From Woeseiaceae bacterium (GTDB lineage: Bacteria > Pseudomonadota > Gammaproteobacteria > Steroidobacterales > Woeseiaceae), in NCBI GenBank assembly GCA_013042375.1, contig JABDQH010000019.1:1-64000 (forward strand): a DNA stretch of 64,000 nt, in the 5' to 3' direction. Each line of letters starts with the position of its first letter. Position 1 is the first letter of the stretch. Below, piece by piece: positions 16,593 through 20,798 of this stretch. The notes under the pieces were generated by a model. The model had not been told where the DNA came from. It ran no database searches and was given only the letters and a program-made list of their open reading frames with translations. A program made the translations under genes and the position numbers.

Positions 16593-18432
<1,840 letters not shown>

Positions 18433-18547
18433 TCAGAATAATGCAAAGAAGTACTTATTTTCCTTATATTTAGGCAGGGTTTCCACGTGTACGGCACAGT
18501 TTTGGCCGGTTTCCGTAATAAATGCTCCCAGGGGTGGGTCATCTCGG

Positions 18548-19054
18548 ATGACAAGTAGCAGCGCAGAGGGCGTACGGCGGCGGAGGTTTGACAGCCTCGT
18601 GTCGGTCTACTACGCCGACATGTTTCGCTACGCCGCCTGGCTGAGCCGGGACCGGTCGGTAGCCGAAGAAGTCGTCCAGGAGGCGCTATTGCGCGCCTGG
18701 AAAGCCCTCGACGCACTGCGCGACGACGGCGCGGCCAAGCCATGGCTGCTGACGATCGTGCGACGCGAGAACGCCCGCTACTTCGAGCGACGCCGCCTGG
18801 AGACCGTCGATATCGACAATCTCTCGGCGTCGCAGGCGGCACTGCTTGCCGAGGAGCCGGACGAGCAACTCGATGATTTGCGCCATGCAATCTTCGAGCT
18901 CGACGACGACTATCGCGAGCCGCTGGTCCTGCAGGTCCTGATGGGCTACAGCACCAACGAGATTGCCGCCATGATGGGCCTGAAGCAGGGTGCGGTACTG
19001 ACGCGCCTGCACCGGGCCAGGCAGAAACTGATGGATATTGTGGACACCGAATGA
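18548..19054 (+). CDS. ECF-type RNA polymerase sigma factor
   Basis: A 168-residue sigma factor with region 2 (FDSLVSVYYADMFRYAAWLS, then RSVAEEVVQEALLRAWKAL) and region 4 (LDDDYREPLVLQVLMGYSTNEIAAMMG, then VLTRLHRARQKLMD). No region 1.1 or 3 is present, as expected for the ECF group. Its stop overlaps the start of a DUF3379 gene (ATGA), a pair seen widely in gammaproteobacteria where the DUF3379 protein is the presumed anti-sigma or membrane partner. The HvfA-like precursor follows, so this sigma factor may drive that unit. The start at 18548 gives the normal ECF length. Confidence 0.88.
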   Translation: MTSSSAEGVRRRRFDSLVSVYYADMFRYAAWLSRDRSVAEEVVQEALLRAWKALDALRDDGAAKPWLLTIVRRENARYFERRRLETVDIDNLSASQAALLAEEPDEQLDDLRHAIFELDDDYREPLVLQVLMGYSTNEIAAMMGLKQGAVLTRLHRARQKLMDIVDTE

Positions 19055-19680
19055 ACGGCGACCAAGACAAGAGAATCAGGGCACTCGATCTGAAGATCGC
19101 GAAAGCGCTGCAGATCGACGTCCCGCCGCTGGTCATGCCGGAGCTGCCCGAGGTCGATACCGACAAGGTCGCGGCGCTGCCGCAGCGCAGGCGGTCGCGG
19201 AAGCCCGTGTGGTACGCCATTGCTGCGACCGTCGTGCTCGCAACGTCGATCGCGATTCGCATGTCGGGACCGTTCGAGAATTACGATTCGCTGGCGGCCG
19301 AGGTGCTCGCGCACGTCGATCATGAGCCGCGGGCTATGCGGGTCGTCGACACGCCGGTCGCGGACGAACGACTGCAACGTGCGGTGCCCGCGACGATGGC
19401 CGTCTTCGATCGTGGCGAATCGCTGATCACCTACGCGCGCACCTGCATCATCAACGGCAAGAAGGTGCCGCACCTGGTCGTGCAGGGGCAGCACGGCCCG
19501 GTAATGATCCTGCTGATGCCCGATGAAAAGGTCGCCGCGGCGACGCCCCTCGAGGGCGAAAGCGTGCACGGAATCATCATTCCGGTCGGTGAGGGCAGCA
19601 TTGCTGTCGTCGGCGATCGCGAAGAAGCGCTCGAACCCATTCGCGAGAATGTGATTGATTCGATTACCTGGACGACGTAA
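19051..19680 (+). CDS. DUF3379 membrane protein, presumed anti-sigma partner
   Basis: The 209-residue protein has a cytoplasmic N-terminus of about 50 residues rich in charged residues and one membrane helix (WYAIAATVVLATSIAI). The periplasmic domain contains a single conserved Cys in ARTCIINGKKVPHLVVQG, followed by HGPVMILLMPDEKV and GSIAVVGD. This C-terminal pattern fits DUF3379, which is nearly always encoded behind an ECF sigma factor. The architecture matches a membrane anti-sigma factor, although the N-terminus lacks a recognisable zinc-binding ZAS motif. The lone periplasmic Cys could sense metal or redox state; that is an inference. Confidence 0.8.
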   Translation: MNGDQDKRIRALDLKIAKALQIDVPPLVMPELPEVDTDKVAALPQRRRSRKPVWYAIAATVVLATSIAIRMSGPFENYDSLAAEVLAHVDHEPRAMRVVDTPVADERLQRAVPATMAVFDRGESLITYARTCIINGKKVPHLVVQGQHGPVMILLMPDEKVAAATPLEGESVHGIIIPVGEGSIAVVGDREEALEPIRENVIDSITWTT

Positions 19681-19735
19681 GGGTCGTACCGGTCAACTGA
19701 CGCCCGCTTGGGCATAACCCTGGAGAGAAGAGAAG

Positions 19736-20095
19736 ATGTCGGACAAAAAAGTAGTTAAGCCAGTTGTTCTAGCCGTTGGCGCCGCCCTGGCCGGTTCGTT
19801 CGCGATTGCGGGCACGGTCAACGCGGCGCAGGTCGCCGACTCGGCCGAGAGCCCGTTCCAGTTCACGAACCTCGAGATCGGTTACATGATGGGCGAGGGC
19901 GAAGGCTCCTGCGGCGAAGGATCCTGCGGTGAAGGCGACGACAAGGAAGGCGAAGGCAGCTGCGGCGAAGGTAGCTGCGGCGAAAGCGACGATAGTGAAC
20001 CTGAAGGTTCGTGCGGTGAAGGCTCGTGCGGTGAAGGCGACGACAAGGAAGGCGAAGGCTCCTGCGGCGAAGGCAGCTGCGGCGGATCTGCCTGA
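19736..20095 (+). CDS. HvfA/bufferin-like Cys-repeat precursor protein
   Basis: The 119-residue protein has an HvfA-type leader: a basic start, the signal-like VVLAVGAALAGSFAIAG, then SPFQFTNLEIGYMMGEG. Low-complexity sequence follows with eight Cys at residues 59/64, 76/81, 93/98 and 110/115, so pairs of EGSCGEGSCG recur every 17 residues, separated by acidic GDDKEG or SDDSEP spacers. In HvfA proteins the matching motif is usually EGKCGEGKCG, and its Cys are converted by an MNIO enzyme (HvfB, DUF692) with HvfC into thiooxazole-type groups that bind copper. Here the Lys is Ser throughout and no hvfB or hvfC lies nearby. The product is probably exported. A GGAGA motif precedes the ATG and a strong terminator follows. 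Modification and metal binding are inferred from the family. Confidence 0.82.
   Translation: MSDKKVVKPVVLAVGAALAGSFAIAGTVNAAQVADSAESPFQFTNLEIGYMMGEGEGSCGEGSCGEGDDKEGEGSCGEGSCGESDDSEPEGSCGEGSCGEGDDKEGEGSCGEGSCGGSA
19902..20089 (+). repeat. Four tandem 51-bp coding repeats in the HvfA-like gene
   Basis: The Cys-rich part of the gene is built from a 17-codon unit (EGSCGEGSCG plus a 7-residue acidic spacer) repeated about three and a half times. The units differ at synonymous positions (TCC, AGC and TCG for Ser; GGC and GGT for Gly), so the array is held by selection on the protein rather than being a very recent duplication. Confidence 0.85.
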
Positions 20096-20119
20096 AGAAG
20101 CACCACGGAAGACGGAGAA

Positions 20120-20147
20120 AGCCCACGCACTGCGTGGGCTTTTTTTT
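20120..20147 (+). terminator. Strong intrinsic terminator after the HvfA-like gene
   Basis: AGCCCACGC and GCGTGGGCT form a perfect 9-bp stem around a three-base loop, followed by seven Ts. It lies 24 bases after the stop codon and closes the sigma-DUF3379-precursor unit before tag. Confidence 0.92.
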
Positions 20148-20213
20148 GGCCATGGACGGCCTTATGCCGCGGGCGCATGGACGCGCAGGAGCGGCGTTGC
20201 TAGATTGATTTGC

Positions 20214-20798
20214 ATGACAAATGAGCTGTCACGATGTCGTTGGGCCGAGGGTGCCGGCCCGGAGTATGAGCGTTATCACGACGAGGAGTGGGGCGTCCCC
20301 GTGCACGACGATCGGACGCAGTTCGAGTTCCTCATCCTCGAAGGTGCGCAGGCCGGCCTCAGCTGGTCAACGATCCTCAACAAGCGTGCAGGCTATCGCA
20401 AGGCCTTCGCCGCGTTCGATCCGCAAAAGGTCGCGCGCTTCACGAACAAGCGCGTCGAGAAGCTGCTGCAGGACCCCACGATCGTGCGTAACCGGCTCAA
20501 GGTCGAGTCGGCCGTCACCAATGCGCAGGCGTTTCTCGCCGTGCAGGAAGAGTTCGGAACGTTCAGCGACTACGTCTGGCGCTTCGTCGACGGCAGGCCG
20601 GTACAGAACCGTTTTCGCAGGGATCGCGACGTGCCGGCGACGTCACCTGTGTCCGATACCCTCAGCAAGGACCTGAAAAAGCGCGGCTTCCGGTTCGTCG
20701 GCAGCACCATCGTGTATGCGCACATGCAGGCGACGGGCCTCGTCAACGATCACGTGACCGGCTGTTTCCGGCACGGAGCCTGTGCCGCTCTGGCTTGA
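20214..20798 (+). CDS. tag: DNA-3-methyladenine glycosylase I
   Basis: The 194-residue protein has the Tag signature: RCRWAEGAGPEYERYHDEEWG at the start (Cys and His zinc ligands and the DEEWG motif), LEGAQAGLSWSTILNKR, and near the C-terminus VGSTIVYAHMQATGLVNDH with GCFRH (the remaining zinc ligands). It removes 3-methyladenine from alkylated DNA. The ATG at 20214 begins right at the family N-terminus; longer in-frame readings run back through the terminator and the precursor gene. It is the first gene after the terminator, so it must have its own promoter. Confidence 0.94.
   Translation: MTNELSRCRWAEGAGPEYERYHDEEWGVPVHDDRTQFEFLILEGAQAGLSWSTILNKRAGYRKAFAAFDPQKVARFTNKRVEKLLQDPTIVRNRLKVESAVTNAQAFLAVQEEFGTFSDYVWRFVDGRPVQNRFRRDRDVPATSPVSDTLSKDLKKRGFRFVGSTIVYAHMQATGLVNDHVTGCFRHGACAALA

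Follow-up and report, generated by a model that had tools for sequence, protein, structure and literature searches.

The HvfABCX systems, also described as captophorins or oxazolins and represented by H. influenzae HvfA, FonA, NgoA and Microbulbifer MmrA, are of the EGKCG type (PMC13097082, PMC12538549). In the Bufferin Buf1 clusters an exported MNIO substrate stands under an ECF sigma/anti-sigma pair, the sigma factor being accompanied by NrsF (PMC12452194). Many bufferin precursors do not adjoin MNIO genes, so that split precursors as such are known (PMC12452194).

The locus described here lies in the window, the whole stretch of 64,000 nucleotides that was analyzed, which comes from a Woeseiaceae (Gammaproteobacteria) MAG of 2.76 Mb (120 contigs, 84% complete). 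As in the HvfABCX systems, a Sec signal is followed by an SPF...GYM leader and paired EGxCG repeats with one Cys per 5-mer, and HvfB, HvfC and HvfX are the enzyme set. Unlike those systems, the Woeseiaceae have Ser for Lys before the Cys and an acidic core, the precursor is split from the enzymes, and an ECF sigma factor and a DUF3379 protein are encoded in the precursor operon. The arrangement also recalls Buf1, but the precursor is not a DUF2282 protein, the anti-sigma candidate is DUF3379 rather than NrsF, and the enzymes lie elsewhere. The window unit is probably one half, regulatory genes plus precursor, of a split, sigma-controlled HvfA-type (captophorin/oxazolin-like) metallophore system. 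In a trans-acting, ECF-unified, Ser-type HvfA system, the parts would be ordinary ones and their arrangement unreported. A literature search, with subscription journals and supplements outside its reach, found no paper with DUF3379, no link of DUF3379 to MNIO systems and no MNIO paper with EGSCG.

The precursor operon and its EGSCG core

The ORF list and profile searches placed an ECF sigma factor, a DUF3379 protein, an exported HvfA-type precursor and a terminator in 18548–20147 (Table 1), which bears out the positions and order given in the preliminary description. The sigma factor scored 202 bits against NCBIfam PRK12517 (cut-off 197) and, as expected of an ECF factor, matched Sigma70 regions 2 and 4 in Pfam and lacked region 3. 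Its start ATG is conserved in the family alignment; in-frame starts further upstream also exist. The DUF3379 start overlaps the sigma stop through ATGA, and the terminator stem at 20120–20140 with its U-run is predicted to be stable (−22.4 kcal/mol, z −5.2). A sigma-70 consensus scan of 18400–20300 detected no promoter. The short hairpin preceding the precursor gene keeps its place and stem in 18 aligned relatives, a few stems being altered yet still pairing, while the window copy alone folds no better than shuffles (z −0.05); with a conserved place and an unexceptional stability, no function is claimed for it.

Table 1. Features of the precursor locus, in window coordinates
Feature	Position	Strand	Basis
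Promoter-like box GTAATAA-N15-GGTC, 5' of sigma gene	18515..18540	+	2 genome matches; recurs in relatives
ECF sigma factor, 168 aa	18548..19054	+	PRK12517, Sigma70_r2, Sigma70_r4_2
DUF3379 membrane protein, probable anti-sigma factor	19051..19680	+	PF11859, AF2 model
Short GCCC-GCTT-GGGC hairpin 5' of precursor ribosome-binding site	19702..19713	+	Kept in aligned relatives
HvfA-type RiPP precursor, EGSCG core, 119 aa, 8 Cys	19736..20095	+	NF050137
Intrinsic terminator	20120..20147	+	9-bp stem, 3-nt loop, U-run

The precursor has a Sec-like N-terminus, the leader SPFQFTNLEIGYMM and all of its Cys in EGSCG, as four pairs. The HvfA leader layout and the four EGSCGEGSCG pairs noted in the preliminary description were thus confirmed, and the NF050137 profile (HvfA-type KCGExKCG domain) matched with 47.3 bits over a cut-off of 19.5. 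The signal-like N-terminus and the SPF...GYM leader are also kept in the precursors of relatives. Against the HvfA equivalog model NF050188 the score was 50.1 bits, below the cut-off of 95, and the protein is therefore not filed as HvfA proper. A Pfam search gave no match and hence no DUF2282, the mark of Buf1. Captophorins of the Lys-Cys type have Lys preceding each core Cys and an MNIO and a DUF2063 partner at the same locus; here all eight such residues are Ser and the partners are on another contig.

Across 86 Woeseiaceae precursors, the residue before CG is Ser 582 times, Lys 73, Ala 37, Thr 16, Gly 8, Asn 4 and His 3, as against 238 Lys and 2 Ser at 30 precursor loci from other families within the class. 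The median net charge of the core is −13 in Woeseiaceae precursors and +3.5 in the 30 other-family loci, in two sets of related sequences cut at slightly different points; that of the window precursor is −19. The characterised EGKCG enzyme pair FonBC tolerates Ala, Arg and Thr in place of this Lys, though not Phe or Glu, and Ser is not among the variants reported in the text of that study (PMC13097082). Given this tolerance, Ser at the core motif makes a plausible substrate for modification. A natural acidic core with Ser for Lys offers a test case for the effect of charge on thiooxazole formation, copper loading and aggregation.

The distant hvfBCX operon and the box common to both operons

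A profile search of the contigs for MNIO and DUF2063 genes, which the preliminary description had proposed, found a single MNIO gene, on contig C54, in an hvfB-hvfC-hvfX operon whose products all exceed the equivalog cut-offs (score/cut-off: HvfB 418/360, HvfC 289/142, HvfX 132/80). Reading of the ORFs around hvfB placed nth and a DUF1841-like gene on its upstream side and a permease on the downstream side, with no precursor within 16 kb on the one contig, and the genome's only NF050137 matches fall inside the window. The earlier statement that no modifying enzyme is present up to 64 kb holds for the window but is misleading for the genome, at which level the label of orphan precursor is wrong.

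The neighbors of related precursors, also proposed for inspection, were the sigma and DUF3379 genes in 88 of 89 Woeseiaceae loci examined, with the precursor directly behind DUF3379; an order that recurs so often shows that the window arrangement is not due to chance. The exception is G001, a 98% complete genome that is also without an MNIO. The preliminary description had considered that relatives might always lie beside hvfB/hvfC, but in Woeseiaceae the precursor was never seen there, and no EGxCG ORF adjoined any of the MNIO loci examined. In G105, a single contig, the precursor maps close to 105 kb and the MNIO to 2477 kb, 2.4 Mb apart, and in G011 both are on one 3.6-Mb contig at a distance of about 2 Mb. 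Judged from these genomes, the split of precursor and enzyme is old and family-wide and no accident of assembly. The search for MNIO precursors has mostly concentrated on the neighborhood of the enzyme gene, and by that approach the HvfB of this common and widespread marine family of sea-floor bacteria would seem to have no substrate.

Comparison of upstream regions provided a means to pair the split genes. Alignment of the regions preceding the sigma genes revealed a common block ending GTAATAA...GGTC...ATG, and an identical block with an equal spacer is found 5' of hvfB. The pattern GTAATAA-N15-GGTC has exactly two matches in the genome, C83:18515–18540 and C54:50178–50203, the second of which lies 28 nt ahead of hvfB; its reversed control has none. 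A relaxed form (spacer 13–19) matched the genome 11 times, a figure close to that of its reversed control, and for this reason only the fixed-spacing form was used. In relatives, among the matches listed, the box stands before 35 of 40 sigma operons and before 32 of 40 MNIO genes, counted over the genomes appearing first among those matches rather than over a selected set; of the eight MNIO genes lacking it, some are second, divergent ones. The box is probably the −35/−10 pair of this ECF factor, and the sequence comparison argues strongly for a regulatory link between the sigma operon and hvfBCX. Only 7 nt separate the end of the box from the sigma ATG, and a clear ribosome-binding site is lacking, so the sigma mRNA is likely to be leaderless or nearly so.

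The box was also observed 15–31 nt before an AhpC/TSA-type redoxin gene at L171, L172, L173, L277 and L278 (G009, G010, G011, G002 and G003, respectively), spanning four other Woeseiaceae genera, as well as at a DUF1223-like gene (L279), a DoxX gene (L179) and others. The regulon may be a thiol/redox response. The source genome has no close homologue of the box-linked redoxin, the nearest showing only 27% identity. At L152 (G011 C1:210000–214500) a second MNIO cluster has the box before a Cys-rich CKG-type (Buf2-like) precursor, and the sigma factor may there drive two metallophore types.

DUF3379 and an MNIO were each detected in 87 of 107 Woeseiaceae genomes, and the precursor domain in 78. 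The presence of DUF3379 and of MNIO co-varies (82/5/5/15; Fisher 2e-10, or 2e-4 without the small-genome genus), figures that are a supportive guide and no clean test because the genomes are related. Three fragmented MAGs, G062 (estimated 100% complete), G035 and G087, have the precursor and no MNIO or DUF2063 match, so maturation in trans may not be universal.

The residues R15, R16, D249 and F250 of FonB are those of Lys-Cys-type enzymes. The corresponding R-R and D-F were matched in 28 of 28 Woeseiaceae MNIO sequences, bar one Ser at the Phe site. Two further positions mark the Woeseiaceae enzymes, V186 (Tyr in 20/20 EGKCG enzymes) and F260 (Ile in 16/20). They were rejected as the cause of the Ser core, since G005, whose precursor is all EGKCG, has a Woeseiaceae-type MNIO; within the family, differences among the MNIO sequences do not follow the change between Lys and Ser.

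The DUF3379 protein and the proposed switch

The DUF3379 protein scored 97.3 bits against PF11859 (gathering score 33.2). Its AF2 model (mean pLDDT 80.5) has a cytoplasmic helix, a transmembrane segment at 54–71 and a periplasmic domain at 81–209, a single-pass anti-sigma layout like that of RseA/RseB and MucA/MucB, with one protein in place of two. In structure comparisons, the predicted periplasmic domain resembled the C-terminal domains of RseB and MucB (Z 7.0–7.4), a weak match tied with that to 1vr8 (Z 7.8), at values that can arise by chance. The RseB/MucB domain is the best-supported neighbor of the modeled domain and is taken as a lead. Full-length homologues, among them 73 of 88 Woeseiaceae members, have at the N-terminus an HxxxCxxC segment of the kind typical for zinc anti-sigma factors. 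The window protein, together with a few sister lineages, has lost this cytoplasmic segment (window 19051–19110) and kept the rest. H88, C132 and H141 are conserved in 87 of 88 Woeseiaceae proteins, the remaining one being truncated; among 25 proteins from other families, they are present in 17, 20 and 18, respectively. These residues form a candidate metal or redox site, in which a sensor role of the lone periplasmic Cys, C132, is plausible. DUF3379 is probably an anti-sigma factor, and the common box makes it a candidate regulator and sensor for these putative copper peptides.

In the proposed mechanism, the membrane-bound DUF3379 protein would hold the ECF sigma factor until its periplasmic domain senses stress, most likely copper or thiol/redox stress. 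The released sigma factor would then transcribe its own operon (sigma, DUF3379 and precursor) and, via the matching box, the distant hvfB-hvfC-hvfX. Before export by Sec, HvfBC would modify the EGSCG Cys, the probable products being 5-thiooxazoles, and copper would be sequestered in the periplasm by the acidic, polyanionic peptide. Both the core chemistry and the copper role are predicted from characterised EGKCG relatives. As context, Woeseia was among the dominant genera on copper surfaces kept in seawater (PMC6917582). The preliminary description had listed as separate options an enzyme elsewhere that works in trans on a changed core and a new branch under sigma control of its own; both are supported and prove to be one thing, the hvfBCX operon lying on C54 and having the box of the sigma gene.

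Its third option was that the protein binds metal unmodified, as an exported acidic Cys-rich peptide with plain thiols, hvfBCX serving some other, undetected precursor. The predominance of Ser over Lys in the motif (582 to 73 in 86 genomes) and the three MAGs with a precursor and no detected MNIO are in keeping with this reading. It is nevertheless disfavored, and improbable, in view of the box common to both operons, the retained leader motif SPFxxxxLxxGYM, the co-variation of DUF3379 with MNIO and the tolerance of FonBC for small residues at the Lys site; moreover, no other NF050137-type precursor is found in the genome and none adjoins hvfB.

A general redox-stress ECF factor might also co-regulate both operons without precursor and enzyme acting on each other. 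The boxes at the redoxin genes of G002, G003, G009, G010 and G011, and at the DUF1223-like, DoxX and other genes, do indicate a wider regulon. The precursor, however, can be recognised as HvfA-type and the MNIO scores above the HvfB equivalog cut-off, no other substrate was found for this HvfB, and in G234 the same sigma family adjoins a precursor-MNIO cluster, so that mere co-regulation appears somewhat less probable still. That a second hvfA beside hvfB was simply missed in a genome of 120 contigs, 84% complete, is hardly credible: the 16 kb around hvfB are precursor-free on one contig, no EGxCG ORF lies beside any MNIO locus examined, and the equal split in G105 and G011 largely refutes an artefact. 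The split, sigma-controlled system remains the preferred reading.

DUF3379-sigma pairs in other families

Across Gammaproteobacteria, DUF3379-sigma pairs scored over the cut-off in 29 of 202 genomes. Of 24 genomes checked, five have such a pair no more than about 1.5 kb from an MNIO: G234 next to an EGKCG precursor-MNIO cluster, G189 and G216 next to Buf2-like clusters, and G148 and G279 next to an MNIO. In G276, sigma, DUF3379 and an EGKCG precursor form a single operon, and in G280 and G147 the box, in the form GTAATAT, precedes an EGKCG precursor. Tentatively, DUF3379 might combine a periplasmic metal/redox sensor and an anti-sigma factor in one protein and control gammaproteobacterial MNIO metallophore systems, with the Woeseiaceae, through their split regulon and EGSCG precursor, producing a distinct polyanionic thiooxazole metallophore class; we hold this broader proposal to be possible, at somewhat less than even confidence.

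Other small proteins were also seen behind DUF3379. At L209 (G229) and L208 (G167) these are, respectively, a PWxYGGAFxAW repeat protein and a short exported protein whose gene is preceded by a second box. Such small exported proteins are perhaps other outputs of the same switch.
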